Below, one piece after another: positions 2,276 to 33,088 of a stretch of DNA of 50,382 nt. The notes under the pieces are model-generated. The model worked only from the letters and a program-made list of their open reading frames with translations. It was not told the DNA's origin and made no database searches. This stretch comes from Gammaproteobacteria bacterium (GTDB lineage: Bacteria; Pseudomonadota; Gammaproteobacteria; GCA-001735895): positions 1 through 50,382 of the forward strand of contig JAAEPH010000264.1 of NCBI GenBank assembly GCA_024232855.1. The letters are read 5' to 3'. A program made the translations under genes and the position numbers. Each line of letters starts with the position of its first letter. Positions within the stretch are counted from its first letter, which is position 1.

Positions 2276-3118
2276 TCAGGAAGCTTTTTCCAGCAGACCC
2301 TGATCGAGCAGTTTCTGATAGCGAAAGGATCCCCACAGGGCGGCGCCTATGGCGCCGGCAAAAGGTGAATCCGGGTGGTTTCTGGCATTTATCTTGAGCT
2401 TCATGTCTGTCAGCGAGTCGTTCAATGCGCCCAGTAAACCATCGTCCAGCGCCAGGCCACCACTGAGGAAAACGATACCATCCTCGGCTTTCACAACCCG
2501 CAACAGTTTGGCTAATCGCCCCGCCATGGAAAGATGTATGCCGCGCAGGATATTGGGCGCGGTAATGCCGCGCGAAACCATGTTTATCACATCGGTCTCC
2601 GCCAGCACGGCACAGATGCTCGATACCGTTTCCGGCTCATCCGCCTGCAGCGACAGCGTCCCGATTTCACTTTGGGCAATCCCCAGGTAACGGGAAATAT
2701 TCTCCAGAAACTGACCGGAGCCCGAGGCGCACTGACTGGTCATTCGGTATGAAAGGACCTTTCCCAGGTCATTGATCTTTATGGCGCGACCGTGCAGCGC
2801 ACCGATATCCAGCACCGAGCGTGCTTCGGGCTCGAGATAGATTGCGCCACGGGCATGGGTCGTCATGGAGTAAAAATGCCCGGTCGCAAAGGGTACGTTC
2901 TCACCATCACCGGTGGTGGCGGTATAGTCAACCTGAGCCTCGTCAAGACCGGTTTCTTCGAGCAACTCTTCAAAGGCGGTGCGCGCCAGTTTCAGCGGGT
3001 CGCGCTGGCGAATCTTGAAATTACGCTTTGCACGCCAGTTGATTTGCTCACCCTCGGTTTCGAACAGCACCGCTTTTATCGCGCCAGTTCCTACATCAAT
3101 TCCCGCGCTGATCGTCAT
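2276..3118 (-). CDS. bcrD: benzoyl-CoA reductase, subunit D (ATPase module)
   Basis: This 280-residue protein belongs to the BadF/BadG/BcrA/BcrD family of ASKHA-fold ATPases. GIDVGTGAIK near the N-terminus is the phosphate-1 loop. TSQCASGSG at about residue 127 carries the cysteine that, with BcrA, ligates the bridging [4Fe-4S] cluster, and FLSGG near residue 220 is the adenosine loop. I chose the ATG at 3118 because it places the family's opening residues at the N-terminus and gives the usual length. An open frame reaching 3298 overlaps bcrA and looks spurious. With BcrA it hydrolyses two ATP per electron pair to drive electrons into BcrBC. It lies 64 nt after bcrA and 29 nt before the ferredoxin gene. 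Confidence 0.93.
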   Translation of the reverse strand: MTISAGIDVGTGAIKAVLFETEGEQINWRAKRNFKIRQRDPLKLARTAFEELLEETGLDEAQVDYTATTGDGENVPFATGHFYSMTTHARGAIYLEPEARSVLDIGALHGRAIKINDLGKVLSYRMTSQCASGSGQFLENISRYLGIAQSEIGTLSLQADEPETVSSICAVLAETDVINMVSRGITAPNILRGIHLSMAGRLAKLLRVVKAEDGIVFLSGGLALDDGLLGALNDSLTDMKLKINARNHPDSPFAGAIGAALWGSFRYQKLLDQGLLEKAS

Positions 3119-3182
3119 TACCGGTTTCTCCCGTTTTGCATCATGATTTTGTTGTATCGAAGGCTTATCACCGATCCTGTCC

Positions 3183-4499
3183 TCAATGAACCTTGCTACC
3201 CGTTCCCGAGCGCCGCGCGAACTCCGCGGCACCCAGTGCACCGGTATAGATTGATTCCGGATCGATATTGATCTTGACATCACCGTAGTTTTCCACAACC
3301 AGCTTGCGCAATTCTTTCACCGCCGCTTCGTTCTTGGCGACACCGCCGGTAAATGTGAATTCGTTGCTGACGCCACCCGAGCGCGAAATGATGGACATGG
3401 CGCGCAGTATGATGGCCCGGTGCAGGCCGGCGACAATGTCTTCGCGCTTTTCACCCAGGGCCAGGCGGTCGCGTAACTCGGCACCGGCAAATACGGTGCA
3501 GGTGGAATTGATACGCACAGACCGGGTCGATTTCATCGCCATGGGTCCCAGTTCATGCAAGCCCATGTTCATCTCGTCGGCGATATAGCCGAGGTAACGG
3601 CCGCAGCCCGCCGCACAGCGATCATTCATCTGGAAATTGGCGACGATACCGCTTTCATCAACCTGGATGCCCTTGGTGTCCTGCCCGCCGATGTCCAGTA
3701 CCGTGCGGGTGTTCGGGTACATCAGGTGCGCACCGAGGCCATGGCACAGAATTTCAGAGCGGATATGTTCTTTCGGAAACGGCAGGCGAACCCGTCCGTA
3801 ACCGGTACCAACGATGTAACAGGCCTCGATTTCCTCTTCCAGGGCGCTTTGAATCGGCTTGCGCATCAGATCTCCACTGATATCGGTTTGCTTCAAAACC
3901 CGATCCAGCGCATTCATGAATTTTTCATCGAGATTGTGGGCGGGTGGCCGATTTTCGACCTCGATAATAGATTTGTCGTAGATATTCAGCAGGGTTTCGA
4001 AACTAAGGCCCATCTGCGTGGCCACCTCTTCCCCGACGTGCATATAGGCCGATCCGGCAAGGTCGCGGAAAAAGTCGGATTTTCGTGCCGCGCCCGGTGC
4101 AAACAGGGATTCCAGGGTTTTGTTAAGCTGTTGAAATATCTCCTCCAGGGCTTCCGAAAGATCTGCGCCACCCCCGAAAATACTGAGATCCCGGGCGCTC
4201 TTGAGACAGGTCTGATGCAGGTCATCCAACTGTTCCAGAAACAATTCCAGGCGGAAATATCGTTCGAGGTCATCCAGTAATCCCGTGATCTTCCCTTTCA
4301 GTTCCGGTATCGCGTCGAGCCTCTGGCGAAACAGCGTCAGGCGCGTGCTAATGGAGGCTTCCATCTGCGCCACCCGGCTGGCGGTATCGTAGTTGGAGCG
4401 GGAATTGGTGATGCCGTGACCCAAAGCCTGGCCATCTTCATCAACAATAACGGCCTTGGTGGTGGTCGAGCCGAGATCAATACCAATAAAGCATTTCAT
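3183..4499 (-). CDS. bcrA: benzoyl-CoA reductase, subunit A (ATPase module)
   Basis: This 438-residue ASKHA ATPase is the larger partner of Bcr[11 protein letters not shown] at residues 6-15 is the phosphate-binding loop, [11 protein letters not shown] near residue 265 is the second nucleotide loop, and NDRCAAGCG at about residues 292-300 holds the cluster-ligating cysteines. FTGGVAKN near residue 385 is the adenosine motif. A helical insertion at about residues 45-225 distinguishes BcrA from the shorter BcrD. Start ATG at 4499. The gene order bcrC-B-A-D matches Thauera aromatica. The presence of A and D with B and C shows a class I, ATP-dependent reductase rather than the tungsten BamBC type. 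Confidence 0.95.
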
Positions 4500-4528
4500 A
4501 AATGTGTTTCCGGTGAAATATTCATGTC

Positions 4529-5809
4529 CTAGGCCGCGCTGGACTGGGAACGCTTTTGTTCGATCATCTGGAAATAACTCTCCAGGCGGTTCTTGACGTT
4601 GGCGGCAGAAAAGTAACGCGGATCAACCAGGTCGGTTTCGATAAATGCGGCGGGTTTACCGGTGCGTTTCTCCACTTCCTGCATCATCATCAGCTGGCCC
4701 GCGGAAAAACTGTTGCAGCTTTTAATGGAGTTAATCAATAGCCCGTCAGCCTGAAAATCCTCGATATAGTCGGTCAGCATCTCAACCCGGTTGGGCAGGT
4801 TGCGATTGGTATAGCAACCCAGGCAATACTCGGCCAGGGACTCGAGAGGACGCTCGGGATCGTGCCGAAAGCCCAGGTCGTAGACACCACCGACCTTGGT
4901 GTAGGTGCTGGATACCACTACCGCCCCTTCTTCGTAGAACATCTTCCAGAACTCGCGGAAATGAGTCCAGTTGGGCGGGCCTTCCACGACAAGGCGGTAC
5001 TTTTCCTCGGGCATGTCGCCTTCGGGCGTGATCGGCCCGAGATTCTGTTCGATACGCTGTTCTATTTCGCCGCGCAATACGCGATAGTAGTCGACCGCTT
5101 CCTGGGTGCCGCGAAACGCGGTAAATATCGGGCCGATGTAATACACGCCGCCAAAGTAGGCATCGATCGGGGAGCGAACGTTTTTGGCGCTTTCAAGCAC
5201 CCACACCAGGTTGTCTTCGGCCGCCGCAGACCGACGCAAATTCTCACGCAACCGGTCGATGTCAAATTTAACGCCGCTGATGCGCTCCATCGCCGGGATA
5301 ACTTCTTCCTTCAATTGCTTGACGACATAGTCGCGCATATTGTCGGTAATAATGCCATCGCCCGTATAAGGGACCTGCAGCATCACGGTCTCGCAGCCGT
5401 ATTCGTGGCGCAGCAGCTCAAACCACTTCATGAAGGTAAAACAGCCGGTATACGACAGTAACAGTAAATCGGGGGGCGGCATCGGTTTGCCATTGGGCGC
5501 AATATTGCCTTTTGACATCTGCCCGATGTCGGCTTTCACATAGGTACAGACGTCTTCGGAATGGCCGTGGCGTTCCGCGTCCATGATCATGGCGCCGCTT
5601 TTCTTGCGCATGCCATTCTGGATCGCATTGATCTCGGGCAGGTTGTTGAGCATATCGAAACACATGATCAATTCGTTCAGGTTACCCGGCACGAAAGTCG
5701 AGGCAACCTTGCGACCGTTTTCCTGGGTACTGGTCAGGGCATCGTAGTTCCTGGCAATCATTTCCTTTTGCATTAACATCGATGATTCTTTGATGACTTC
5801 TGTATTCAT
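4529..5809 (-). CDS. bcrB: benzoyl-CoA reductase, subunit B (substrate-reducing module)
   Basis: This 426-residue member of the 2-hydroxyglutaryl-CoA dehydratase D-component/BcrB family forms, with BcrC, the half of the enzyme that binds benzoyl-CoA and reduces the ring to cyclohexa-1,5-diene-1-carboxyl-CoA. Candidate cluster ligands are the cysteines in [17 protein letters not shown] and SIKSCNSF. The start ATG is at 5809; an internal ATG at 5776 is possible. Unusually, the ATG lies one base from the end of the 271-bp palindromic element. The only upstream Shine-Dalgarno-like bases (AAAGAG, about 11 nt before the ATG) are therefore part of that element. Spacing to bcrA is 29 nt. Confidence 0.94.
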
Positions 5810-5810
5810 A

Positions 5811-6081
5811 TTAGTGCTCTTTCATGGTCATAATTACGGATTCAGCGTTGCTGTATTGTGTCGCAGCAAGGCGCGGTGCGAAGCGCAAGGGCCAATCCCT
5901 TGTCGAGCGCTGCAACGCGGCTGCGAGGCAATACAGCAACGCCCTTCGGGTCAGCTTGTCGTCGCCCACGGACTGCGTTGCGCCTCTTGACAAGGGTGTG
6001 GCCATTGCCTGCGAGGCGCGCCTTGCCGTGAACGACGACAAGCTGACTGAACTCGCAATCATGACCATGACAGAGCACTAA
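5811..6081. repeat. 271-bp composite foldback element (nested inverted repeats, MITE/BIME-like)
   Basis: The ends are 35-bp inverted repeats (5811-5845 and 6047-6081, both starting TTAGTGCTCT; 30 of 35 match). Inside are two long hairpins separated by CCTTCGG. Hairpin 1 spans 5845-5942 (14-bp perfect outer stem GCGTTGCTGTATTG, apical CAAGGG/CCCTTG). Hairpin 2 spans 5950-6047 (15-bp perfect outer stem GTCAGCTTGTCGTCG). The reverse complement of hairpin 1 resembles hairpin 2 (shared GCGTTGC, GACAAGGG, TGGCC, CGCGCCTTGC), so the element is two inverted paralogous palindromes inside terminal repeats. Three frames stay open across it, but none resembles a protein. No transposase gene or clear target-site duplication is seen. 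It fills the bcrC-bcrB junction. Confidence 0.88.
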
Positions 6082-7238
6082 CTCCACAACTTGAGTGTGT
6101 CGGCAAAGGTGCCGGTCTGTTCCCTGATAGGCTGCATCTGTCCGGAGTTTTCCGCATACTTGAAGGAAATGTGCGGGACGTCGTGTTCAGTCATGCGATC
6201 GGTCAGCATGGGTCTTTCCAGCAGCGCCGGATCACAAAAGCTGGGGGCTGCGAAAATAACGCCTTCGGCCTTGTGTTGCTTTACCGATTGCAACAGGAAC
6301 TGGCCGACATCTTCTTTCCTGGTACAGTACTTGGCCGCCGTATCGGCACTGTGGTGCAGGAATGCATCGGCCAGTACCTGGAGTGCATTTCCATCGGTTG
6401 CCAGGTCCTCGAGCAACCATCGATTACCGAGCAGGTAGTCGTCATCGACGATGTAACAGCCGGACATTTCAATCGTCTTGATCAGGTTGAGCGGCGGTTG
6501 TTCACAGAATGACCCGTTGATCACGACCCGGCAAGAGTCTCTCAGCGGGCGTTGTTCCTCGTTGGCAGCCGCCAGGTAATCCTTCATCATCGCAATGTGT
6601 TCTTCGACCGGGATCACCAGGCCTGCCCGCATCAACAGATAGACCTCCGATGCCGGCGCCTTCCACGGCGTTTCGGAGCGGAATTCGTAGATCTCCCTGA
6701 CCAGGCGTCGGCGTTCGTTATAAATCGCAATCGACCGGTTGATGGCATCGTTACTGATCGGCTTGCCGGTCAGCTCCGCAAAACCGTCACGCAAATGCTC
6801 GAGTTCCCTGACGTAGTATTCGCCGCCGATCCCATCGACAAAATTCTGCGGCACGTCGAAATAGGAGACGAACTTGTCGGGATGGATCATTTTCCACATT
6901 CCGGACAGGTTTCGAATTACGTCACAGATGCTTGGAAACAGCATTCCATCGATAAAATCCAGCTTTCCGGTAACGCCGAGTTCGATGGTGGAGCGGGGAA
7001 TCCGGCAAATGTAACTCTGGTAATAGGCATCGCCATGGATTACTTCCATTTGATCGCCACCGCCAACGATGCCCAGCGGCATCATGCCGGCCGCGTGGAT
7101 AATCTCCTCGGGGACATAGACCGGCATATAAGCCATTACCTTTCGATCGGGGTCGGCGGCTTTCCAGTTTTTCGCCGCGTTAAACTCCAAGTCATCAAAT
7201 AACTCGGTGCAGCGTTCGATGATGTCTTTGATGGCCAT
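6078..7238 (-). CDS. bcrC: benzoyl-CoA reductase, subunit C (substrate-reducing module)
   Basis: This 386-residue protein is of the BcrC/BadD/HgdB family. Cysteines in NGSFCEQPP, SGCYIVDDDY and APSFCDPAL are candidate [4Fe-4S] ligands, and DDDYLLGNRW is typical of the family. It pairs with BcrB to hold benzoyl-CoA. I chose the ATG at 7238, which overlaps the dch stop as TAATG and gives the expected length; a TTG at 7244 is the alternative. The last sense base and the TAG stop lie within the terminal repeat of the 271-bp element, so the C-terminus may differ by a few residues from an ancestral form. Confidence 0.94.
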   Translation of the reverse strand: MAIKDIIERCTELFDDLEFNAAKNWKAADPDRKVMAYMPVYVPEEIIHAAGMMPLGIVGGGDQMEVIHGDAYYQSYICRIPRSTIELGVTGKLDFIDGMLFPSICDVIRNLSGMWKMIHPDKFVSYFDVPQNFVDGIGGEYYVRELEHLRDGFAELTGKPISNDAINRSIAIYNERRRLVREIYEFRSETPWKAPASEVYLLMRAGLVIPVEEHIAMMKDYLAAANEEQRPLRDSCRVVINGSFCEQPPLNLIKTIEMSGCYIVDDDYLLGNRWLLEDLATDGNALQVLADAFLHHSADTAAKYCTRKEDVGQFLLQSVKQHKAEGVIFAAPSFCDPALLERPMLTDRMTEHDVPHISFKYAENSGQMQPIREQTGTFADTLKLWS

Positions 7239-8044
7239 TAGCAATGCTCCCAGTTGGGTTGGCGTTTTTCGATAAAAGCGGTCAGACCTTCGACCGGGTC
7301 ATGTCCGGCCATCAATACTTCGAGGTATTGCTTTTCAACCCGGTCCAGATTCAGTTTCATTCGCTCCACAATATCTCCCCGCGCGGCCCGGACCGCTTGC
7401 CGAAGCGCAAATTTGCTTCGCGGAGCGAGCTGTTGATCGAAATATTTCAGCGCCGCATCTTCGGGGGAATCGTCGATGAATTGTACCAGCCCGCAGGACA
7501 ATGCCGCGGCGGCATCGATGCTGCGGCCGGAAAACAGCAGGTCTTCTGCCCTGGCCTGGCCGATTCTTTCAGGTAGCAGACAGGATGCGGCCGGGGCAAA
7601 AACAGCGAGCGTTATTTCAGGTTGTCCGAAGTTGGCATCGGCCGAGGCGAAGATCATGTTACTGCCGAGGGCGAGTTCGAGCCCGCCACCGAAACAGAAT
7701 CCTCGCACGCAGCACAGCACCGGCACCGGGGCGGCAATCAGCGTTAGCACCAGCCTGTGCAGCTTCGCCAGCATGTTGGCGCATTGATCGGGCAGGTGTT
7801 CGGGCACGCTGGCGCCAAAGCTGAAATTGGGGCCCTCGGCGCCAATCACTACCGCCGTCAGGCCCGGATCGTCGAGGTGCTCATCGAGAGCGGCCTGCAA
7901 CAGATCGATCATCTGCTCGTCGACAATGTTGGCCTTCGGCCGGTTCAGCTTCAGGCTTAACAGGCTGCCTTCACGGAGTAAACGGGTTGCCAGTGCGGAA
8001 TCGGTCATCGTCATTACCAGCGGCTTAACTATCGTTTCCGACAT
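7238..8044 (-). CDS. dch: cyclohexa-1,5-dienecarbonyl-CoA hydratase
   Basis: This 268-residue enoyl-CoA hydratase/isomerase (crotonase fold) has an oxyanion-hole segment FSFGASVPEH near residue 75 and VRGFCFGGGLELAL near residue 115, where crotonases have a conserved G-G-x-x-x-A. Dch adds water to the dienoyl-CoA product of benzoyl-CoA reductase, giving 6-hydroxycyclohex-1-ene-1-carbonyl-CoA. Assignment to Dch rather than to a generic hydratase rests on its position between oah and bcrC, the same as in Thauera. It overlaps oah by 20 nt and bcrC by 1 nt. The ATG at 8044 is used here; internal ATG codons about ten residues downstream are possible starts. Confidence 0.9.
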   Translation of the reverse strand: MSETIVKPLVMTMTDSALATRLLREGSLLSLKLNRPKANIVDEQMIDLLQAALDEHLDDPGLTAVVIGAEGPNFSFGASVPEHLPDQCANMLAKLHRLVLTLIAAPVPVLCCVRGFCFGGGLELALGSNMIFASADANFGQPEITLAVFAPAASCLLPERIGQARAEDLLFSGRSIDAAAALSCGLVQFIDDSPEDAALKYFDQQLAPRSKFALRQAVRAARGDIVERMKLNLDRVEKQYLEVLMAGHDPVEGLTAFIEKRQPNWEHC

Positions 8045-9173
8045 TGTTGGCCGGCATCAGGCTTTCGATCAGTTCGGGTGTCCAGGGCGTTCCGATAGCC
8101 AGTGCCTGGCGCAGTGCGACAAAATCGATCTCACGGCCAATTTCCCGGTTGCCTTCATTAAAGGCCCGAAAGCCGGTGCGCGCCTCGTTCATCATGTTCA
8201 ATGCCAGCCACGCGCGGGAGCCTTCGTGATTCTGATTCCATGACGCCAGTTTGGGCTTGCGCAATTCCTCCAGGCTTTTGGTCATGCACTCGGGGAAGGT
8301 CATCAGCAACTTGGCGCACAGCTGTTCAACCGCTTCATCCAGCAGGCTCAGGTCGATCTCGCCCTGTTTGATCCGGGCGCGCCCTTCCTTTAGTTCTTCG
8401 CCGGTTTTGAATTCACCATGGACGATCCGTCCAAACGAGTCCAGCATCCGGTCGGTGACGACGGTGGGGTTTGCGATGAACTCGCCATCGACCTTCAGCG
8501 CCGGTACGATGCCGGTGCAGACGCCCAGGCGGTAGGCGCGATGCGCGGAAAATGGTTCACACAGGGTGCCGGATACCATGGCCTGTTCGCAGCCAATCAT
8601 GACCGGCAGGAAGTCGGTGGAACCACCGATTGCCGCCGAACCGTGTTTTGGACCCGCCTGGCCGAAATTGGCCAGATCCTGCGCCACGCTGTAGTCACAG
8701 GCCATGCCGATTTCCTGGCCACCACCGATGCGCATACCGTTTACGCGGCAGATCACCGGTTTGTCACAGGACAATATGGCGGACACCATGTCATTGAACA
8801 GGCGCATGTACTGACGATATTCCTGGGGATTGCCGGCATAGTACTCCGCGTATTCCCTGGTATTACCACCGGTGCAAAAGGCTTTATCGCCGCTGCCGGT
8901 AAACACCACGGCATTCACATCCCTCGAATTGCTCGCGGCGCGAAATGCGAGAATCACGTCCTTCACCATCTGCGTGGTGTAGGAATTATATTGCGCCGGG
9001 TTGTTGAGCGTAATCCAGGCATTGAACAGGCCGTCCGCCACGCTGCCATCGGGCCTCCGTGCCGGGCGTTTCTCATATATGACACCGTCTTCGGGGCTAA
9101 ATGGAACGAGGTCGTGATTCAACAGCGGATCGGGGGCGGTCCGCTGGGCGATATCATGGGTGGTTTCGGTCAT
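8025..9173 (-). CDS. oah: 6-oxocyclohex-1-ene-1-carbonyl-CoA hydrolase
   Basis: This 382-residue crotonase-superfamily enzyme of the Oah/BamA family cleaves the ring, converting 6-oxocyclohex-1-ene-1-carbonyl-CoA plus two waters to 3-hydroxypimeloyl-CoA. Recognisable segments include NSYTTQMVKDVI near residue 60, FTGSGDKAFCTGGNTREYAEYY near residue 95 and RVNGMRIGGGQEIGMACDYS near residue 140. The length agrees with the family (about 375-380), which is clearly longer than ordinary enoyl-CoA hydratases. Start ATG at 9173 has AGGAG six bases upstream. It follows had by 34 nt. Oah is the usual functional marker gene for anaerobic aromatic degradation. Confidence 0.95.
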   Translation of the reverse strand: MTETTHDIAQRTAPDPLLNHDLVPFSPEDGVIYEKRPARRPDGSVADGLFNAWITLNNPAQYNSYTTQMVKDVILAFRAASNSRDVNAVVFTGSGDKAFCTGGNTREYAEYYAGNPQEYRQYMRLFNDMVSAILSCDKPVICRVNGMRIGGGQEIGMACDYSVAQDLANFGQAGPKHGSAAIGGSTDFLPVMIGCEQAMVSGTLCEPFSAHRAYRLGVCTGIVPALKVDGEFIANPTVVTDRMLDSFGRIVHGEFKTGEELKEGRARIKQGEIDLSLLDEAVEQLCAKLLMTFPECMTKSLEELRKPKLASWNQNHEGSRAWLALNMMNEARTGFRAFNEGNREIGREIDFVALRQALAIGTPWTPELIESLMPANNVGNDS

Positions 9174-9207: not shown

Positions 9208-10281
9208 TCAGGCGTTCGGCACTAAAATGGCCCGCTCGGTCAATTCGTGAGCATGGGCGGCAGTAAATACATCATTGATCTGATCCAGCGGATACTGGCG
9301 GGTAAACGGTTTCATCTGAACTTTTTTATCCAGTACCAGCTGTAACGCGGCGGGGTAGTGCTCGGGCAGGCAACCCCAGTTACCCTGCATGCGGGCATGG
9401 AATGCCATCAGATTGGAGAGCCTGACCTCGCTTTTTGCCATGGTGAAACCGACGATCGCCAGGTGCGCGCCATGCACCATCAGGGAAAATGCGGTGGCTT
9501 GTCCGGTAGCGCTACCCGAGCATTCAAAAATTTTCCATTCAGTAGAGCGCAGCCCCCGTTCACCGGCAAACGCGGCAATCTGTTTTTTCAAACTACGGCT
9601 GTCAGTTGATCCGGCATTGACGGTCAGGGCGGCGCCGAAGTCGGTAAAGCGCGACAGCTTGTCATCGTCAATATCGATGGCGACCACGGTCGCACCCAGC
9701 GCGCTGGCAACTTGTACCGCATAACCGCCGACACCACCCACGCCGATGACGATGGCGAGGTCGCCGGCCTCTATATTCGCCAGTAATGCCGCCTGGTAAG
9801 GTGTGGTCACGGCATCGGCCAGAACCGAAACATCGGCCAGATCCATACCGATGTTGGCTAGATCCGCCTCGTCGACGACACACAGGCCATTCGAAGGCAC
9901 GGTGATATGGCTCGCAAATCCACCCTGAATATCGTTCCCCGGCATGCATTGCTGGCGACAGATGGCGCCCTTTCCGCGTTTGCACAAATCACAACTGCCG
10001 CAGGGAATGACCGCCGGGATGACCACGGAGGAATCGAGGTAAGACTTCGATGCGTCTCCGCAGGCAATGACGCGGCCGCTGATTTCGTGTCCCAGGGCAA
10101 GGGGCAGGGGATGATTGGTGCGTACACCATCGTAGAGGAAGCCCAGGTCGGTATGACATACCCCGCAGCCGGCAACTTCGACTACCACTTCATTTTCTTT
10201 GGGTATTTCCGGGGTAAATGTTTCCCGGGTCAGGGGTTTGTCGACTGCCGTCATCACCCAGCGATGCGCGGATATCTGCAA
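9208..10281 (-). CDS. had: 6-hydroxycyclohex-1-ene-1-carbonyl-CoA dehydrogenase
   Basis: This 357-residue zinc-dependent medium-chain alcohol dehydrogenase shows catalytic zinc residues in GCGVCHTD (near residue 37) and GHE (near 63). The structural-zinc lobe is [19 protein letters not shown] (near 93-111). The NAD-binding motif is GVGGVGGY near residue 180, followed by an acidic VAIDID that favours NAD. Had oxidises the Dch product to the 6-oxo compound used by Oah. The start is a TTG at 10281, supported by GGAGA six bases upstream and by the absence of a better in-frame start. First gene of the operon, under the consensus promoter at 10314-10341. Confidence 0.94.
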
Positions 10282-10398: not shown

Positions 10399-12153
10399 AT
10401 GAATAAAACATCGGAAAACGGAACCGTGAAACCCGTATCGCTTTCCATTGCCCTGGTCGGCAGTGGCGGGTCCGGTGTGATGACGGCAGGCTCCCTGTTG
10501 CTGGAAGCGGCGGGTCGTGCCGGACTGTACGGCATCATGACACGCGTATCCGGACCGCAGATTCGTGGAGGCGAGGGTGCGGCGCTGTTAAGGCTTTCAA
10601 CCAGGCCTGTGTTTTGTCACAGCGGTCACTTCGACCTTTTGCTGGCAATCGACTGGTTAAACGCGGATCGGTTTGCGGGCGAGATCCCCCTGGATCAAAA
10701 CAGTTTTATTGCCGGTGACGAAAAGATACCCGAATTTTTCTCACAGCGCGGCGCAACCTTCTGCGAAGTTTCTTTTAAGCAGCTGGCTGCCCAGGCGCCG
10801 GGACTGCGACCCAATATGATTGCCCTGGGATTAATCGGTTCCGCCATTGGGCTGCCCACCGAAGCGCTTGAAGATGTGTCGCGCAAGTTGATCGGTAAAA
10901 AAGGCGAGGCGGCGGTTCAGGCCAGCCTTGCCGGGTTATCGCTGGGCGCATCCCATGCCGGTTTGCTGGATGGGCTCCCCGCGATTGCGCATAACCCGAA
11001 TTCCCGTTCTGCGGACTTGCCCGAACTGTGGAACATCAGTGGCAACGAAGCCGCGGGGCTGGGCGCTATCCGGGGCGGGATCAGGTTCGTGGCCGCTTAC
11101 CCGATCACACCGGCAACGGAAATCCTCGAATGGCTGGCGCCTTCGCTCGAGAAAGTCGGCGGGGTGCTGGTTCAGGCGGAAGACGAACTTGCTTCGGTAA
11201 ACCAGTTGATTGGCGCCTCCTTCGGCGGCACGCCATCGCTCACCGCCACGTCGGGCCCCGGATTTGCGTTAATGACCGAATCCATCGGTCTGGCGGTAGC
11301 CTCGGAAACCCCCATCGTGGTAGTCAATGTGGCGCGCGGCGGACCGTCGACCGGGATTCCCACCAAGTCCGAGCAAAGCGACCTTAATATCGCCTTGTAC
11401 GGATTGCACGGGGATGCACCACACCTGGTGGTGGCGCCTTTTTCCGTCAGCGACTGCCTGTTCTCGACCCAGTGGGCGGTGCATCTGGCGGAAACCCTGC
11501 AAACCGCGGCCATCGTTCTTTCCGATCAATCCCTCGGACAAACCCGATCGATTATTCCGCGCCCGACAAATGTGTCGTTTACCACCCAGCGTGTTATCCA
11601 GTCCGAAGCGACTGAAAATTACCAGCGCTATATGACCGGGGGCAGCGGTGTTTCGCCGATGGCTTTACCGGGTCTTGCCGGTTGTCAGTACACCGCGGAT
11701 GGCCTCGAACACAGCCCCAGAGGTACCCCTTCGAGCCGTGCCGAGGATCATGCGCAGCAACTCGATAAGCGGCGAGACAAGCTGTCGCAACATGATTACG
11801 GTGAGCACTGGGCGCATATCGAAGGAGACGGGGCGATGGCTGTCATTACCTGGGGGTCGAGCCTTGCACCGGTAGAGGAAGCCCTGCATGCATTGGCGGC
11901 GGAAGGTATTACGCCACGTCTTATTGCCCCGCGCTTGCTGATGCCGGTACAGCCCGAACGCATGGCGGCGGCGCTGGCAGGTGTAGAAACCGCCCTGGTT
12001 ATAGAACAGTGCCATGGCGCCCAGTTCTTCCACTACCTGAAAGCCTTCTACGCCCCACAATGCGAACTGCACAGCATGGCATTGCCGGGACCCCTGCCAA
12101 TCCGGCCGGATGATGTCCGCAAAGAAATCAGAAAACACTGGAGACAGGAATGA
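10399..12153 (+). CDS. korA: 2-oxoacid:ferredoxin oxidoreductase, fused gamma-alpha subunit (KorA)
   Basis: The protein has 584 residues. The N-terminal gamma domain (about residues 10-190) shows VGSGGSGVMTAG and RVSGPQIRGGEG. The alpha domain (about 215-580) shows AYPITPATEILEW, QAEDELASVN and TATSGPGFALMTESIG, the pyruvate/2-oxoglutarate ferredoxin oxidoreductase signature. With KorB it oxidises a 2-oxoacid plus CoA to acyl-CoA and CO2, reducing ferredoxin. In Thauera aromatica a 2-oxoglutarate-specific KorAB regenerates the ferredoxin used by benzoyl-CoA reductase; placement divergent to had suggests the same here. Substrate preference cannot be read from the sequence. It overlaps korB by 4 nt. 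Confidence 0.93.
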   Translation: MNKTSENGTVKPVSLSIALVGSGGSGVMTAGSLLLEAAGRAGLYGIMTRVSGPQIRGGEGAALLRLSTRPVFCHSGHFDLLLAIDWLNADRFAGEIPLDQNSFIAGDEKIPEFFSQRGATFCEVSFKQLAAQAPGLRPNMIALGLIGSAIGLPTEALEDVSRKLIGKKGEAAVQASLAGLSLGASHAGLLDGLPAIAHNPNSRSADLPELWNISGNEAAGLGAIRGGIRFVAAYPITPATEILEWLAPSLEKVGGVLVQAEDELASVNQLIGASFGGTPSLTATSGPGFALMTESIGLAVASETPIVVVNVARGGPSTGIPTKSEQSDLNIALYGLHGDAPHLVVAPFSVSDCLFSTQWAVHLAETLQTAAIVLSDQSLGQTRSIIPRPTNVSFTTQRVIQSEATENYQRYMTGGSGVSPMALPGLAGCQYTADGLEHSPRGTPSSRAEDHAQQLDKRRDKLSQHDYGEHWAHIEGDGAMAVITWGSSLAPVEEALHALAAEGITPRLIAPRLLMPVQPERMAAALAGVETALVIEQCHGAQFFHYLKAFYAPQCELHSMALPGPLPIRPDDVRKEIRKHWRQE

Positions 12154-12992
12154 CGACCGGCACTACAAGTCAACCAGCGTTGAAAGCAAAGGATTACAAA
12201 TCCACGATTAAGCCGGTATGGTGTGCCGGTTGCGGTGACTTCGGCGTGCTGTCTGCCATTACCAGGGCGCTGGCGGAGCTTAAAATCGCACCGGAGAATA
12301 CGGCCGTAATTTCGGGGATCGGCTGCTCATCGAGAATTCCCGCCTACCTCAATACCTACGGGTTCCATGGTGTGCACGGGCGTGCGTTACCGGTAGCGAC
12401 CGGGTTGAAGATATCCCGCCCGGATCTCACCGTACTGGTAAGCAGCGGCGATGGTGACGGTTTTTCCATCGGCGGTAACCACTTTATGCAGGCATGCAGG
12501 CGTAACGTTGACATGACCTATATCGTCATGGATAACCAGGTATATGGCATGACCAAGGGACAGGCATCGCCAACCACGGACGCTGACTGGGATCGTAGCA
12601 AAATGACACCTCACGGAACGCATATCAACCCGTTTTACCCGCTAGTGGTGGCGCTTGCATCAGGCGCCAATTTTATCGCTCGCGCCTCGAGCAGTAATCC
12701 CAGTGGAGCCGCCGAGGTCATCAGCGAGGGTATTCAGCATCCCGGGTTTTCTTTCATCCAGATATTAAGCCCCTGCGTCACCTTTCGCCCGGAACAGCGG
12801 GACTGGAAAAAAGTAGTGCGTCCGGCACCGATAGAAGCCACGACCGATCCAGCCGCTGCCGCGCGCCGCCTGATGACGGACGATAATTTTTATCTGGGTG
12901 TGCTCTACAAGGGTGATCGAGCGTCATTCCAGCCGGAATTTACAGACCAGCCTGTATCTGAAGCGGAACTGGAACGGGAATTTATATTGTAA
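12150..12992 (+). CDS. korB: 2-oxoacid:ferredoxin oxidoreductase, beta subunit (KorB)
   Basis: This 280-residue thiamine-diphosphate subunit has WCAGCGDFG at residues 23-31 (CxxC cluster ligands and TPP contact), GIGCSSR near residue 58, and the TPP/Mg motif GDGDGFSIGG near residue 97 continuing to NQVYGMTKGQ. It forms the catalytic core with KorA and carries at least one [4Fe-4S] cluster. No separate delta-type ferredoxin subunit is encoded nearby, so the soluble 2[4Fe-4S] ferredoxin at 2001-2246 is the likely acceptor. The gene overlaps korA by ATGA and is followed by a 68-bp gap before the AOR gene. Confidence 0.93.
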   Translation: MTTGTTSQPALKAKDYKSTIKPVWCAGCGDFGVLSAITRALAELKIAPENTAVISGIGCSSRIPAYLNTYGFHGVHGRALPVATGLKISRPDLTVLVSSGDGDGFSIGGNHFMQACRRNVDMTYIVMDNQVYGMTKGQASPTTDADWDRSKMTPHGTHINPFYPLVVALASGANFIARASSSNPSGAAEVISEGIQHPGFSFIQILSPCVTFRPEQRDWKKVVRPAPIEATTDPAAAARRLMTDDNFYLGVLYKGDRASFQPEFTDQPVSEAELEREFIL

Positions 12993-13060: not shown

Positions 13061-15415
13061 ATGAAGCGACAGGATGACACCAACAGCAACAGTTCGACCT
13101 TGAGTATTGAGCGGCGGGTTGAATCCCTGTTGCAGAGATTTGATGGCGCACCCTGCTATGAGACCCAGGGCGAGACATTATTTGTCAACCTGGCCAACCG
13201 GCGTGTTGACAGGAGTCGACTGCCCCGCGAAGCGGTGGACACCTTCCTCGGCGGGCGCGGGTTGAACATGTACCTGCTTTACAACCTGATGGACGAGAAC
13301 CGCCCGGCGCTGGACCCGGACAATCCGTTGATCTTCGGTACCGGCGTTCTCACCGGGTACACCACGGCCGCGGCTCGCGCTAATGTCAGTGGATTATCAC
13401 CCGACAGCAACGCGTTGCTGGACACCAATGCGGGTGACTGGTTTCCGGCCTACATGCGTTTGCATGGCATCGACCACATCGTATTGTTCGGTCTGAATGA
13501 GAATCTGGTACTGATTGAAATCGACGGCGATCAAGTTATTTTCCACGATGCGGAATGCTGGCGGGGCCTCGATAACATGGAATTTACCAAAGCGGTCGAA
13601 GAACATTTCGGAGTCCGCGAGCGCCGCGACATGGCGCTCGCGCGCATCACCTCGGCCGGTGAAAACAAGGTGCTTTGTTCGGGCATCATGGCGGGCCCCA
13701 AGGCCATTTGGGCCCGCGGGGGAGCCGGCGCCAAAATGGGGGCGCTCAACGTCAAAGGCATCATGATCCGGGGCAAGCCCGAAAAACCGGAGCTGAACGA
13801 CGATTTTCGCACCGTCAACCGCACGCTGGGGCGGAAGATTACCGCTTCCAGCGTCGTCAAACACGCACTCAAGACCGTGGGCACCCCGTTTCTGTATAAA
13901 CCGAGCCGGGTCCTGTGCGCTATCGGCGCGCTCAACAATCAAAAAACCTCCTGGACCGATAATCTCGATGCGGATAATTTCGATCGCTATCGAACGGGTA
14001 TGGACGGCTGCCTGAAATGCCCGGTTCACTGCCGGCCGCTGAACGACATGAAACCCGGCGCCAAGGGCGGGTGGGGCGCGGGTGCACTGATCGGCCGCAA
14101 GGGCAACGCCAGCTACGATAGCCAACAATCGAACCTCGAGCATGAAGAGGGTGTGCAGTACCAGGGTGCCGCCGGTGATGGAAGTTTCGACAACTACGAT
14201 GCCGGAGATGGTCCCGAGTACGTGACCCTGGGCAAGTTTGGGCCGGGTATCGGCATCGAATCGCCGCAACAGGTTCTGCGGCTGAACAACATTCTGAATG
14301 ATCTCGGTCTCGATTCGTCCAGCACCGGCGGCGCCATTGCCTGGGCCATGGAACTGTTCCAGCGGGGAATTATCGATATCGACGACACCGGCGGGCTGGA
14401 TCTGAAATGGGGCAACTACGCGGCGGTGGAAAAATTGCTGTTCATGACCGCCAGGCGGCAGGGTTTCGGGGACGTCATCGCCGACTCGGCGCGGGCGGTA
14501 GATACCGGGAAGTACCCGCGCGAAGCGTTGGCATGGCGTATGGCGGTTAAAGGATTGTTTCAATCCGACCCCCACGACAGCCGGATACTCAAGGCCTTTG
14601 CGCTGGGACTCGCGGTGGCGACGCGGGGTATGGATCACCTGCGAAACCGCGTTACGATGGAAATCAACGCCAGAATCAATGACGATGAAGCCTTCAAGAC
14701 CGAACTGTACGGCGGCAAGGTAGCGGCCCGGCCCAACGATTACGAGGGCAAGGAATACGCGGTACGCCGCTGTGAAGATACGTTTGCGGTCGGCGATGCG
14801 GTTGGCATGTGCCGCTTCGATACCAAGCTTTTCAATTCGCCCACGCTGCCCGGCTGCGAGGAATTTGCCGACCATCTCCGCACCCTGACAGGCCTCGATT
14901 TCAGCGCTGACGATCTGCTTCAGATCGGGCGTAACATTACCGGGCTGGAGCGAATGATCAATGCCCGCCGCGGACTTGGCGCTGCAGACGATACCTTGCC
15001 GCAGCGCTGGTTCGATGAACCCGTAGACGCCGGGCCTTTTACCGGAGAGTTTATCGATCGGGATCGGTTCGACGCGATCAAACAGCGTTTTTACGACATT
15101 ACCGGGCTCGATTCCGATGGGCTTCCGCAAACGAAATGGAGGCAGCAGCTGCAGGAAAAGACCACCGGATTCGCAATTTCGCTAACACTGCCGGCAGAAT
15201 GGAAGCCGAAACATTGCGTCCCGGATCAAACTACCAGAAGCCTGCCTGAACTCAGGCAATGGATTGAAGGTCGCTTCCCGGAATGCCGGGACGAGTTGGC
15301 GGATGTTTCGCTCAACTTCGCGGTGAACGGCGAGCTGGTCATCGAAAACCAGGAGTCGGTGGTGCTTCGTTCCGGCGATGACGTGACCCTGGTGCCGGCG
15401 GTGGCGGGTGGATGA
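13061..15415 (+). CDS. tungsten aldehyde:ferredoxin oxidoreductase with C-terminal MoaD/ThiS-like domain
   Basis: This 784-residue protein has the AOR N-terminal tungstopterin domain (about residues 45-270; FLGGRGLN, GVLTG, ARGGAGAKMG). The cluster cysteines C-x2-C-x3-C (GCLKCPVHC, near residue 316) and a distal VGMC (near 583) complete the AOR body to about residue 700. The last 80 residues form a beta-grasp domain ending VTLVPAVAGG, matching the C-terminal diglycine tail of MoaD/ThiS sulfur carriers. AOR oxidises aldehydes to acids with ferredoxin as acceptor, so benzaldehyde to benzoate is a reasonable role here. In Aromatoleum a MoaD-like protein (AorD) is encoded separately; here it is fused. 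Weak RBS. Confidence 0.88.
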   Translation: MKRQDDTNSNSSTLSIERRVESLLQRFDGAPCYETQGETLFVNLANRRVDRSRLPREAVDTFLGGRGLNMYLLYNLMDENRPALDPDNPLIFGTGVLTGYTTAAARANVSGLSPDSNALLDTNAGDWFPAYMRLHGIDHIVLFGLNENLVLIEIDGDQVIFHDAECWRGLDNMEFTKAVEEHFGVRERRDMALARITSAGENKVLCSGIMAGPKAIWARGGAGAKMGALNVKGIMIRGKPEKPELNDDFRTVNRTLGRKITASSVVKHALKTVGTPFLYKPSRVLCAIGALNNQKTSWTDNLDADNFDRYRTGMDGCLKCPVHCRPLNDMKPGAKGGWGAGALIGRKGNASYDSQQSNLEHEEGVQYQGAAGDGSFDNYDAGDGPEYVTLGKFGPGIGIESPQQVLRLNNILNDLGLDSSSTGGAIAWAMELFQRGIIDIDDTGGLDLKWGNYAAVEKLLFMTARRQGFGDVIADSARAVDTGKYPREALAWRMAVKGLFQSDPHDSRILKAFALGLAVATRGMDHLRNRVTMEINARINDDEAFKTELYGGKVAARPNDYEGKEYAVRRCEDTFAVGDAVGMCRFDTKLFNSPTLPGCEEFADHLRTLTGLDFSADDLLQIGRNITGLERMINARRGLGAADDTLPQRWFDEPVDAGPFTGEFIDRDRFDAIKQRFYDITGLDSDGLPQTKWRQQLQEKTTGFAISLTLPAEWKPKHCVPDQTTRSLPELRQWIEGRFPECRDELADVSLNFAVNGELVIENQESVVLRSGDDVTLVPAVAGG

Positions 15416-15479: not shown

Positions 15480-16397
15480 ATGAAGAAACCTGGAACAAAA
15501 AAGAAGTCCGCGGTTACCGGCAAAAACGGCCATGCCGGCCAGCTTATGACGGAGGTAGCGCAGCGGGTACGCACCACGCGTTCGCGGCGCGGCCTTACCC
15601 GTAAAAACCTGGCCCATCATTCCGGTATCTCCGAACGTTACCTGGCCCAGGTGGAAAATGGTGAGGCGAACGTTTCATTGGCATTGCTGGCGCGGATTGC
15701 CGAAGCGCTTGGCGTTTCCATCGAGTCGTTGCTGCCGATTGGGGACAACTGCGCCATTGGGCACGAGCGTCTGGGAAAACTGATCGATCTGATGGATGCG
15801 GACACCCGGGAAAAGGCGTACCAGGTATTGACCGAGGCATTTGGAGAACCCCGCGGCGAGACGCGCACGGGGGTAGCGCTGATCGGGCTGCGCGGAGCTG
15901 GAAAGAGTACCCTGGGCGAGCATTTGGCGCGCCACCATAAGGTTCCATTCGTGCGCCTCGATGAAGTGATTTCACAGCTTGCCGGGCTGGAAATGGGTGA
16001 GTTGATTTCCCTGACCGGGCAGAGTGTCTTCCGCCGCTATGAAGCGGAAGCGCTGCAGAAAACATTGCACGACTACCGATATGTGGTCGTCGAGGCCGGG
16101 GGGAGCCTGGTATCTGAAACTGAAACCTACAAGCTTCTTCGAGAGCGCTATTTTACCGTCTGGGTTCGCGCCATGCCCGAGGATCATATGAACCGGGTCA
16201 CCGACCAGGGCGATTTGCGTCCAATGGACGGGCACCTTCAGCCGATGCAGGATCTGAAACGGATTCTGAGCGAGCGCGCCGCGGATTATGCGCTGGCCGA
16301 TTACGAACTGATGACGTCGGGCCGTAGCATCGATTCCTGCCTGGCGGACCTGGTAAAAGTTTCCGCTCCGCACCTGCAAAGAACCCGGCAATGCTGA
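15480..16397 (+). CDS. BzdR/BoxR-type transcriptional regulator (XRE HTH plus shikimate-kinase-like domain)
   Basis: In this 305-residue protein, residues 20-80 form an XRE helix-turn-helix (TRSRRGLTRKNLAHHSGISE, then LAQVENGEANVSLALLARIAEALG). A linker leads to a shikimate-kinase-like domain (about 128-290) with the P-loop GLRGAGKST and VVVEAGGSLV. This domain pair is diagnostic of BzdR of Azoarcus and its paralogue BoxR, repressors of anaerobic and aerobic benzoate pathways that are released by benzoyl-CoA bound at the kinase-like domain. It very probably represses the adjacent had-bcr and kor-AOR units. The first few Lys-rich residues before the HTH may not be conserved. Start ATG at 15480. 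Confidence 0.93.
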   Translation: MKKPGTKKKSAVTGKNGHAGQLMTEVAQRVRTTRSRRGLTRKNLAHHSGISERYLAQVENGEANVSLALLARIAEALGVSIESLLPIGDNCAIGHERLGKLIDLMDADTREKAYQVLTEAFGEPRGETRTGVALIGLRGAGKSTLGEHLARHHKVPFVRLDEVISQLAGLEMGELISLTGQSVFRRYEAEALQKTLHDYRYVVVEAGGSLVSETETYKLLRERYFTVWVRAMPEDHMNRVTDQGDLRPMDGHLQPMQDLKRILSERAADYALADYELMTSGRSIDSCLADLVKVSAPHLQRTRQC

Positions 16398-27742: not shown

Positions 27743-30631
27743 ATGAAAAAGTTAACCAGAACTTCATCCGTTGTCGATCCACGAGGCAGCGCATCATCCA
27801 CGCAAGCCATACCCGGAGCGATAACACGGCGCTCATTTCTGCGAAACTCGAGCCTGATGGCGGGTGGCGCGGCATTGGCGACCACGGTATCGCCGGTCAT
27901 GATGAAGAAGGCCGAGGCCTCGAATGCGACCGGCGCCAATACCGAGGAGATCAAGACGATCTGTACGCATTGTTCAGTCGGCTGCGGCATCATCGCCGAA
28001 GTTCAAAACGGCGTCTGGACAGGACAGGAACCGGCTTTTGATCACCCCATCAACAAGGGTTCGCATTGCGCCAAGGGCGCCTCTATCCGTGAACACGGAC
28101 ACGGCGTACGCCGCCTCAAGTACCCGACCAAGCTGGTCGACGGCAAGTGGCAAAAGGTTTCCTGGGAACAGGCGATCGAGGAAATCGGCGACAAGTTACT
28201 CGAGATCCGCGAGAAATCGGGCCCCGATTCGGTCTACTGGCTGGGTTCGGCCAAGCACAACAACGAGCAAGCTTACCTGTTCCGCAAGTTTGCCGCCATG
28301 TGGGGCACCAACAATGTCGACCACCAGGCGCGCATCTGCCATTCGACCACGGTCGCAGGCGTTGCCAATACCTGGGGCTACGGCGCGATGACCAATTCCT
28401 ATAACGACATCCACTTCTCCAAGTCGGTATTGCTGATCGGTTCCAACCCGGCGGAAGCGCACCCGGTCGCCATGCAGCACATTTTCAAGGCCAAGGAAGA
28501 AAACAATGCGCCGATTGTCGTTATCGATCCGCGCTACACCCGCACCGCGGCGCATGCAAATCATTACCTCAAGATACGCCCGGGCACAGACGTCGCCATC
28601 ATCTGGGGCATGATGTGGCATATCTTTGAAAACAACTGGCATGACAAGGAGTTTATCCGTCAACGCGTTTACGGCATGGACGACGTCATGAAGGAAGTCA
28701 AGAAATGGAACCCGGCTGAAGTCGAGCGCGTCACCGGCGTACCCGAAAACCAGGTTTATGCCGCTACCAAGGCCATGGCCAACAATCGCCCGGGCACCTT
28801 TATCTGGTGCATGGGCGGCACCCAGCACACCATCGGTAACAACAACACACGTGCCTACTGCGCGTTCCAGCTGGCGCTCGGTAACATGGGCGTGTCCGGC
28901 GGCGGCGCCAATATCTTCCGCGGCCACGATAACGTGCAGGGCGCGACCGACCTGGGTGTGCTCTCCAACACCCTGCCGGGATACTACGGCTTGTCCGCGG
29001 GTTCCTGGAAGCACTGGTCGCGCGTCTGGGGTCTCGACTACGAGTGGGTCAAGGGCCAGTTCGACAGTGGTAGCTACGAGCAGAGCAAGGGCAAGGATGT
29101 GCCGGTCATGAACACCAAGGGTATTCCGGTGTCGCGCTGGATCGATGGCGTGCTCGAAGACAAGGCCAATATCGCGCAGAACGACAACCTCAAGGCGATG
29201 TTCTTCTGGGGTCACGCACCCAACAGTCAAACCCGCGGCGCCGAACAGAAAAAAGCAATGGATGGCCTCGAAATGATGGTGATCGTCGATCCCTACCCGA
29301 CAGCGTCGGCGGTCATGCCGGATCGCAAGGACGGCATTTACCTGCTGCCGGCCTCCACGCAGCTGGAAACCTATGGTTCGGTCACCGCATCCAACCGCTC
29401 GTTCCAGTGGCGTTCAAGGGTCATCGAACCGATGTTCGAGTCGAAGCCGGATCACATCATCATGTACCAGCTGGCGAAGAAGCTGGGACTGGCCGAGCAG
29501 ATGTTCAAGAATATCCAGGTCAATGGCGATGAGCCGCTGATCGAAGACATACTGCGCGAGATCAATCGCGGCATGTGGACCATCGGCTATACCGGTCAGA
29601 GCCCGGAGCGGCTGAAGAAGCACCAGCAGGCCTGGGGCACTTTCGACTACGATACGCTCAGGGCCGAAGGCGGTCCCGCCGACGGCGACTATTACGGTCT
29701 GCCGTGGCCGTCCTGGGGGACGCCGGAAATGAACCACCCGGGCACGCCGAACCTGTATGATACATCGAAGAATGTAGCGGACGGCGGTTTGACCTTCCGT
29801 GCCCGCTTCGGTGTCGAACGCAACGGTACCAACCTGCTTGCAGAAGGTTCTTTCGGCAGGGGTTCCGAGATCAAGGACGGCTACCCCGAGTTCAGCGACA
29901 AGGTGTTGAAGAAGCTGGGCTGGTGGGACGACCTCACCGACGACGAGAAAGCGGCGGCCGAAGGCAGGAACTGGAAAACCGATCTGTCCGGTGGTATTCA
30001 GCGAGTCGCCATCGCGCATGGTTGCTCACCGTTCGGCAATGCTAAGGCGCGAGCGATGGTGTGGACTTTCCCGGATCCGGTGCCCATTCACCGCGAACCG
30101 CTGTACACGTCGCGGCGCGACCTGGTGGAGAAATACCCGACCTATGAAGATCGCAAGTCCTTCTGGCGGCTGCCAACGCGTTACAAGTCGATCCAGGCAA
30201 AGGATTACTCCAGGGATTACCCGATTATCCTGACCACCGGCCGGCTGGTCGAATACGAGGGGGGTGGCGAGGAAACGCGCGCCAACGCCTGGCTCGCCGA
30301 GCTGCAGCAGGACATGTTCGTCGAAATTCATCCGCGTGACGCCAATAACGCGGGCATCAAGGATGGCGACGATGTCTGGGTCGAAGGGGCGGAAGCCTCG
30401 AGGGTCAAGGTCAAGGCCATGGTGACGCGCCGTGTCGGTTCCGGAGTGGCCTTCATGCCTTTCCACTTTGCCGGGCATTTCCAGGGTGAGGATCTGAGGC
30501 ACAAGTATCCCGAGGGCGCCGATCCCTATGTTTTGGGTGAGGCCGCAAACACAGCGATGACATATGGCTACGATTCCGTGACGCAAATGCAGGAATCGAA
30601 GTGCAGCCTTTGTCGCATTAGCAAAGCTTAG
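27743..30631 (+). CDS. fdhA: formate dehydrogenase, catalytic alpha subunit (Mo/W-bisPGD)
   Basis: The protein has 962 residues. A Tat signal with TRRSFLRNSSL is centred on residue 29. The [4Fe-4S] motif CTHCSVGC...HCAKG occupies about 74-109. The metal ligand is cysteine in ARICHSTTVAG near residue 198, where many homologues have selenocysteine, so no SECIS is needed. The MopB domains follow, and the C-terminal molybdopterin-dinucleotide domain begins around 820 (ILTTGRLVEYEGGG). It oxidises formate to CO2 in the periplasm, passing electrons to FdhB. Export is as a folded complex with FdhB through Tat. Confidence 0.95.
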   Translation: MKKLTRTSSVVDPRGSASSTQAIPGAITRRSFLRNSSLMAGGAALATTVSPVMMKKAEASNATGANTEEIKTICTHCSVGCGIIAEVQNGVWTGQEPAFDHPINKGSHCAKGASIREHGHGVRRLKYPTKLVDGKWQKVSWEQAIEEIGDKLLEIREKSGPDSVYWLGSAKHNNEQAYLFRKFAAMWGTNNVDHQARICHSTTVAGVANTWGYGAMTNSYNDIHFSKSVLLIGSNPAEAHPVAMQHIFKAKEENNAPIVVIDPRYTRTAAHANHYLKIRPGTDVAIIWGMMWHIFENNWHDKEFIRQRVYGMDDVMKEVKKWNPAEVERVTGVPENQVYAATKAMANNRPGTFIWCMGGTQHTIGNNNTRAYCAFQLALGNMGVSGGGANIFRGHDNVQGATDLGVLSNTLPGYYGLSAGSWKHWSRVWGLDYEWVKGQFDSGSYEQSKGKDVPVMNTKGIPVSRWIDGVLEDKANIAQNDNLKAMFFWGHAPNSQTRGAEQKKAMDGLEMMVIVDPYPTASAVMPDRKDGIYLLPASTQLETYGSVTASNRSFQWRSRVIEPMFESKPDHIIMYQLAKKLGLAEQMFKNIQVNGDEPLIEDILREINRGMWTIGYTGQSPERLKKHQQAWGTFDYDTLRAEGGPADGDYYGLPWPSWGTPEMNHPGTPNLYDTSKNVADGGLTFRARFGVERNGTNLLAEGSFGRGSEIKDGYPEFSDKVLKKLGWWDDLTDDEKAAAEGRNWKTDLSGGIQRVAIAHGCSPFGNAKARAMVWTFPDPVPIHREPLYTSRRDLVEKYPTYEDRKSFWRLPTRYKSIQAKDYSRDYPIILTTGRLVEYEGGGEETRANAWLAELQQDMFVEIHPRDANNAGIKDGDDVWVEGAEASRVKVKAMVTRRVGSGVAFMPFHFAGHFQGEDLRHKYPEGADPYVLGEAANTAMTYGYDSVTQMQESKCSLCRISKA

Positions 30632-30643
30632 AGGGATTGAAAA

Positions 30644-31237: not shown

Positions 31238-31300
31238 AAATACGCAAATAAAAATGTGGCTGCCTGACCGGGCCATGTTTATCTTCGGGGATAACGGAAA

Positions 31301-33038: not shown

Positions 33039-33054
33039 ACGGAGTTAACCCGTA

Positions 33055-33080: not shown

Positions 33081-33088
33081 TTTCGATC

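Follow-up and report, generated by a model that had tools for sequence, protein, structure and literature searches.

Fusion of a MoaD domain to the C terminus of an aldehyde:ferredoxin oxidoreductase (AOR) has been known since 2006, when Iyer, Burroughs, and Aravind noted it in Azoarcus and suggested that AOR-linked MoaD genes might serve tungsten-cofactor synthesis for AOR (PMC1779556). Coverage in the accessible text of that work is confined to a single line together with a figure and a note to a table, without an ortholog survey, a test of the C-terminal diglycine (GG), an altered active site, or a benzoyl-CoA link. The same source describes MoaD-MoaE and ThiS-ThiG fusions, in which a carrier is likewise joined to the protein that it serves. 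Dedicated carriers also occur as separate genes. A 2026 classification of tungsten-oxidoreductase-family enzymes (WORs), in the sections available, names the separate "ThiS-like" gene beside Class I WORs WorX and calls its exact function unknown (PMC13328260); the AorD and AorE proteins of Aromatoleum aromaticum are, like WorX, ThiS/MoaD-like and dedicated to a WOR.

This work concerns a 50,382-nucleotide stretch of gammaproteobacterial DNA, referred to here as the window (contig JAAEPH010000264.1 of assembly GCA_024232855.1), which encodes a protein with the same domain order as the Azoarcus fusion. Whereas WorX, AorD, and AorE are encoded by separate genes, the carrier-like domain of this protein cannot leave the enzyme unless it is cut off. 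In addition, whereas the partner in MoaD-MoaE and ThiS-ThiG fusions is a biosynthetic enzyme, here it is the enzyme that ultimately uses the cofactor. On balance, the evidence leans toward a WOR-family enzyme with its own tethered AorD/WorX-type sulfur carrier, serving the benzoyl-CoA pathway. In the accessible text of the literature searched, we found neither the GG invariance nor the split state, and likewise no mention of the altered active site or of a benzoyl-CoA link; no paper on the function of the fused paralog was found in the portion of the open-access literature that was available.

Domain architecture and predicted fold

The open reading frame (ORF) belongs to the WOR/AOR superfamily: it has both AFOR_N and AFOR_C domains, the AOR fold, and all four cluster cysteines. 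Its features are listed below, in positions of the window.

13061 to 15415, forward strand: WOR/AOR-family enzyme with a C-terminal MoaD-type domain, 784 amino acids (ORF and translation)
13100 to 13102, forward strand: putative alternative TTG start at residue 14 (in line with where the G027 ortholog begins)
13172 to 13774, forward strand: AFOR_N, residues 38 to 238 (Pfam, 156 bits)
13817 to 15151, forward strand: AFOR_C domains, residues 253 to 697 (Pfam, 290 bits)
14009 to 14032, forward strand: [4Fe-4S] ligands C317, C320, and C324 (CxxCxxxC; CLKCPVHC), invariant in 40 orthologs
14810 to 14812, forward strand: C584, the fourth cluster ligand (VGMC), invariant in 40 orthologs
15173 to 15412, forward strand: MoaD-type beta-grasp domain, residues 705 to 784 (Pfam ThiS; VIA-align to 1fm0_D)
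15407 to 15412, forward strand: codons of Gly783-Gly784, with the stop directly after (ortholog alignment)

A first-pass annotation had proposed these ORF coordinates, the AOR body, and the CxxCxxxC and VGMC motifs, all of which were borne out by ORF calling, Pfam, and the 40-ortholog alignment. Its proposal of a C-terminal beta-grasp domain of about 80 residues with a free GG also held: Pfam ThiS matches residues 723 to 784 with 32.9 bits (cutoff, 22.5), and the protein terminates in VPAVAGG followed by the stop codon. At the other end, the true start may be the TTG at 13100, 13 codons downstream of the ATG used, since the G027 ortholog (82% identical) begins there; residues 1 to 12 have pLDDT values below 50 in the AlphaFold2 model.

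This model, built from the 40 orthologs, has a mean pLDDT of 81.5 and a pTM of 0.88. Foldseek and VIA-align comparison of the body with solved WOR-family structures returned 9mqx_D (Z, 41.5) and 1aor_A (Z, 38.9). Values of pLDDT in the ThiS region are mostly 81 to 88, falling below 50 in the last three residues (∼44 in the tail). Superposition on Escherichia coli MoaD, the check suggested in the first-pass annotation, agreed with the predicted beta-grasp: residues 705 to 784 gave a Z of 10.1 against 1fm0_D within the full model (VIA-align), and the domain folded alone gave a Z of 10.7 with an rmsd of 1.7 over 76 aligned residues. Folded alone, the domain also resembled 1jwb_D, which is MoaD in its acyl-adenylate complex with MoeB (Z, 9.6), while ThiS proteins reached a Z of only ∼6.7; the predicted fold thus appears closer to MoaD than to ThiS. 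The score against the housekeeping MoaD equivalog TIGR01682 was 17.4 bits, far under its cutoff of 66.15, which indicates that the fused domain is not an ortholog of housekeeping MoaD. Full-length 1aor aligns to residues 32 to 702 of the model; the MoaD-like domain is therefore predicted to start without a linker, right behind the last AOR helix. The TGF motif at this junction (residues 702 to 704) is kept in 38, 39, and 31 of the 40 orthologs, respectively.

The domain folded alone is also similar to SAMP1 and Urm1 (Z, ∼8 to 10), a likeness that would suit a protein modifier whose GG is conjugated to lysines, linking the enzyme to itself or to its partners. We know of no precedent for a 784-residue modifier, which counts against such a role. 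The split carriers described below sit next to the AOR gene to which they belong, in the manner of dedicated cofactor genes, and inspection of the annotated neighbors, which did not extend to a dedicated search, brought no conjugation or deconjugation genes to notice. Although Thermococcus kodakarensis carriers are, according to the available text, also conjugated to proteins (PMC11323500), we regard a modifier as very improbable.

Conservation and evolution of the fusion

Genome contigs were scanned using one genome per species (84,980 species), yielding 57 loci. The fusion was found in a single frame in 40 sequences, including that of the window, and all of these were aligned. Their hosts are Gammaproteobacteria, Aromatoleum, Geobacteraceae, and one planctomycete. 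The fusion, which the first-pass annotation had proposed to look for in other AORs, thus occurs in several phyla, and this recurrence rules out an assembly or read-through artifact. The gene is nonetheless rare; the window's own genome was the only carrier among 398 sampled genomes of its phylum. A search for the clade on plasmids retrieved only distant AORs with less than 60% identity. The first-pass annotation had set the fusion against Aromatoleum, in which the AOR operon encodes a separate AorD. This contrast was incomplete: Aromatoleum evansii and Aromatoleum toluclasticum, the two Aromatoleum genomes tested, have a 620-residue AorB-type AOR as well as the fused paralog elsewhere in the genome.

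G783 and G784 are identical in 40 of 40 fused sequences and P711 in all 39 rows that have the column; the other columns of residues 703 to 784 vary. The mean fraction of the most frequent residue is 0.58 for residues 703 to 784, compared with 0.75 for AFOR_N and 0.79 for AFOR_C, making the MoaD-type domain the least conserved part of the protein. The terminal GG is present in all 42 aligned domains, fused and split. Conservation of this terminus, on which the first-pass annotation had staked its proposal, therefore stands, with one sequence extending four residues beyond it. This sequence, the homolog from a planctomycete MAG (L083:8150-8226), reads MFAGG-TDGA-stop; the extra tail may point to either a trimming requirement or a sequence error.

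Pairwise dN/dS values (eight pairs) range from 0.04 to 0.24 for the domain and from 0.02 to 0.10 for the body, with certain synonymous distances near saturation. Values this far below 1 indicate purifying selection on the domain. In seven of the eight pairs, the domain is the faster-evolving part. Together with the residues behind the GG in L083, this could be taken as the mark of a structural or dimerization element, the relic of a former carrier. However, an invariant GG at the extreme C terminus runs directly counter to what a relic would display, and structural domains need no free diglycine; we consider a relic unlikely.

A split form was found in nine Acidobacteriota orthologs, in which the AOR stops at the normal place and a separate ThiS-like gene ends in GG. 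The carrier gene overlaps the AOR gene or lies at most ∼400 bases away, with a single case ∼830 bases downstream. In a tree of AOR bodies, a single clade (SH-aLRT, 99) unites 39 fused sequences, and L083 is placed among the split sequences (SH-aLRT, 93). From the position of L083, the fused or split state changed at least twice on this quick tree, for which no root was inferred. Sister AORs from Bathyarchaeota have a separate GG-ending ThiS-like gene immediately upstream; their join to the clade is uncertain, and the branches are long. Since the carrier is encoded with the WOR gene, either fused to it or separately (Acidobacteriota and Bathyarchaeota), it can be classed with AorD and WorX.

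The tree also bears on whether an ordinary aldehyde:ferredoxin oxidoreductase merely lost the stop codon ahead of aorD by accident and without consequence. Elsewhere, matches continue past the AOR stop in the same frame to the end of the carrier, such that one lost stop could create a fusion. Yet several phyla have retained the fused state in what is nearly a single clade (the 39 sequences above), and its body is unlike that of ordinary AORs at the positions of Glu313, Tyr427, and Tyr452 described below. An inconsequential accident thus seems improbable.

Outside the AOR family, ThiS-family matches were observed within open frames of 480 to 640 residues (e.g., G058:C324, G062:C13, G069:C271, and G070:C212). 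These are not AOR fusions and are possibly further large sulfur-carrier fusions.

Active site and enzyme class

Residues were mapped to Pyrococcus furiosus AOR by profile alignment and fragment alignment. The following positions are relevant to the enzyme class.

14222 to 14224, forward strand: V388, aligned with the catalytic Glu313 of P. furiosus AOR (in the clade, Val in 46 of 49 and Thr in 3 of 49)
14573 to 14575, forward strand: H505, at the position of Tyr427 (His in 49 of 49 fused and split members)
14636 to 14638, forward strand: H526, the conserved counterpart of His448 (49 of 49)
14648 to 14650, forward strand: R530, aligned with Tyr452 (the same in every clade member)

T275 corresponds to Thr243 and is present in 49 of 49 clade members. 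Outside the clade, with BamB-type and bathyarchaeal rows set aside, Glu occupies the 313 position in 14 of 14 AOR-type rows. According to the accessible text of a 2025 review, Glu313, His448, and Tyr427 are conserved second-shell residues, with Glu313 as the proton acceptor, and a Tyr-to-His change is on record in one characterized AOR (PMC12096430). P. furiosus AOR (1aor) and A. aromaticum AorB (8c0z) share with the window's protein the fold (Z, 35.9 to 38.9), the cluster cysteines, and the counterparts of Thr243 and His448. In contrast to both, the window's protein falls in a separate clade, has Val or Thr for Glu313, His for Tyr427, and Arg for Tyr452, and carries the additional C-terminal domain.

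The name aldehyde:ferredoxin oxidoreductase, under which the first-pass annotation had entered the gene, is consequently not safe. The aligned residues place the protein in the superfamily, but the Glu313 and Tyr427 of AOR sensu stricto are missing. The Val or Thr in place of Glu313, as well as the His for Tyr427 and Arg for Tyr452, makes an aldehyde oxidoreductase label doubtful. No report of this altered active site was found in the accessible text of the literature searched.

BamB, the class II benzoyl-CoA reductase (4z3w), belongs to the same superfamily, likewise lacks the AOR glutamate, and is linked to benzoyl-CoA. Assignment of the window's clade to BamB-type reductases was rejected, as the BamB-type sequences (L125 and L128, so named by length and clade rather than by a family model) lie far off in the tree and differ from the clade in their active-site residues.

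Gene neighborhood and the benzoyl-CoA pathway

The gene lies in a korA-korB-aor-regulator arrangement, divergent from a had-oah-dch-bcrCBAD cluster for class I benzoyl-CoA reductase.

2276 to 7244, reverse strand: bcrC, bcrB, bcrA, and bcrD, class I benzoyl-CoA reductase
7238 to 8044, reverse strand: dch, cyclohexa-1,5-dienecarbonyl-CoA hydratase (TIGR03189)
8025 to 9173, reverse strand: oah, 6-oxocyclohex-1-ene-1-carbonyl-CoA hydratase (TIGR03200)
9208 to 10281, reverse strand: had, 6-hydroxycyclohex-1-ene-1-carbonyl-CoA dehydrogenase (TIGR03201)
10399 to 12153, forward strand: korA-like 2-oxoacid:acceptor oxidoreductase alpha subunit (TIGR03710)
12150 to 12992, forward strand: korB-like 2-oxoacid:acceptor oxidoreductase beta subunit
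15480 to 16397, forward strand: BzdR/BoxR-like regulator (HTH and shikimate kinase-like; NF006015, anaerobic benzoate regulator)

At the G027 locus, the stop codon of korB is overlapped by the start of aor. Within the flanks examined, had, oah, and dch were found at L043 and L071, at L067, and at L073, L074, L088, and L095, in at least three arrangements. A BzdR-like regulator adjoins the gene at most of these loci and also in Sedimenticola. Certain Sedimenticola and Geobacter loci have other 2-oxoacid:ferredoxin oxidoreductase genes close by instead, and the neighbors at the Aromatoleum locus examined are transporter genes. No Rfam match to a Moco/Tuco riboswitch ahead of the operon was found within the window.

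The association extends to whole genomes. Among 57 related genomes, Oah (TIGR03200) was detected in 3 of 3 with the fused gene and in 0 of 54 without it, which is one arrangement in 29,260 under independence, although these genomes are not independent. Other AOR-family matches occurred in 35 of the 54 genomes lacking Oah. More broadly, Oah was present in 28 of 32 carrier genomes (that of the bathyarchaeal sister included) and in 0 of 14 control genomes. The clade tracks the benzoyl-CoA pathway, a link that appears in none of the papers searched, as far as their text was accessible.

One bathyarchaeal locus (L093:1-6645) encodes a sister AOR (33% identity) in which Thr takes the place of Glu313 and has had- and oah-like genes near it; the locus may represent a benzoyl-CoA pathway in archaea that includes an enzyme of this kind. 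Farther along the window (27743-34354), a formate dehydrogenase-like alpha subunit gene is followed by genes for a cytochrome b (formate dehydrogenase gamma-like), a membrane anchor (TmcC-like), and an iron-sulfur protein (DsrK/HmcF-like); together they may form an unusual composite electron-transfer cluster.

Cofactor genes elsewhere in the genome

The genome that carries the window (G000) contains three AORs: the fusion and two ordinary enzymes of 615 to 640 residues (C269 and C396), each of which has a separate GG-ending MoaD-like gene. The MoeB gene that the first-pass annotation had proposed looking for is present (C277:7817-8560), as is MoaE (C140), so partners for both charging and using the GG are available. 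There is also a further MoaD beside MoeA. The fused domain was rejected as the sole MoaD, as further ThiS/MoaD proteins were found in G000 and in 20 of 20 other carrier genomes examined. With another MoaD in G000, sulfur transfer does not strictly depend on the fused domain.

This redundancy is relevant to the main rival explanation, in which the domain is a chaperone for cofactor insertion or folding, and its GG would dock on the apo-enzyme or a maturation protein to report loading while another MoaD in G000 could provide the sulfur. The linker-free junction behind the last AOR helix and its conserved TGF motif would fit such a role. A docking surface, however, would be expected to be conserved domain-wide, whereas conservation is confined to the terminal glycines and a few structural residues, a pattern that fits a carboxyl terminus needing activation. 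A chaperone without sulfur is therefore possible but doubtful.

Other carrier genes of G000 were also recorded. On C277 (L101:7817-10663), MoeB, an AorC-like flavoprotein gene, and an AorA-like ferredoxin gene lie on one strand, adjoined by moeA-moaD on the other. On C396, tandem MoaD-like genes (L103:3384-3626 and 3715-3966) follow an AOR gene and the flavoprotein gene that accompanies it; the upstream copy ends in WPQC without GG, and the second is intact with a GG end. The tandem resembles the aorD/aorE pair of Aromatoleum, and one copy may be decayed or a noncarrier. Only four ThiS-family proteins in G000 score over the cutoff, all of them apparently MoaD-like or AOR-linked, and no ThiS of the thiamine type turned up in the draft assembly.

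Proposed function

A tethered sulfur donor, as proposed in the first-pass annotation, is the best available reading of the domain, unproven as it is, and we rate it slightly better than even. It is based on a MoaD fold that is weakly conserved and strict only in its free C-terminal diglycine, which is what a MoeB-activated carrier requires. That the carrier occurs both split and fused, and that the two other AORs in G000 have separate carriers of their own, indicates that the carrier belongs to the enzyme. Consistent with such pairing, deletion of carrier genes in T. kodakarensis lowers or abolishes tungsten-enzyme activity in an enzyme-specific manner, according to the available text, whose authors also consider it possible that the sulfur goes on only once the apo-cofactor sits in its target (PMC11323500). 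Counting against the reading, the accessible part of Arndt et al. has AorD and AorE of A. aromaticum absent from the purified enzyme (PMC6365974), L083 has four residues beyond its GG, and G000 has a further MoaD.

In the proposed scheme, housekeeping MoeB would adenylate the free Gly784, and a desulfurase would then load it as a thiocarboxylate. The tail would enter MoaE and give up the dithiolene sulfur for pyranopterin, with the tether holding pyranopterin synthesis beside an apo-enzyme requiring two pterins for each metal. The finished enzyme would act in the benzoyl-CoA pathway, probably swapping low-potential electrons with ferredoxin, alongside KorAB. Thiocarboxylation, sulfur donation, and channelling, as well as tungsten as the metal, the electron partner, and the substrate, are what we infer in this scheme.

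A bolder version is that the clade represents a tungsten enzyme performing a nonaldehyde reaction in benzoyl-CoA ring reduction, with its own thiocarboxylate giving dithiolene sulfur to a pterin precursor already in or near the apo-enzyme. We hold this version to be a long shot; if true, part of cofactor synthesis would happen on the final enzyme.

Implications

The fusion is real, conserved, and meaningful, and its invariant GG suggests that the enzyme carries with it a component for assembling its own metal cofactor. It touches on the question of why many tungsten-enzyme genes have a MoaD-like gene of their own. How a carrier finds its client enzyme is likewise asked in the accessible text of the T. 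kodakarensis study (PMC11323500). As the fusion occurs naturally in cultured Aromatoleum and Sedimenticola, the question of dedicated carriers becomes testable on a single protein. The changed active-site residues and the close association with the benzoyl-CoA pathway, in turn, point to an uncharacterized tungsten enzyme in anaerobic aromatic degradation.
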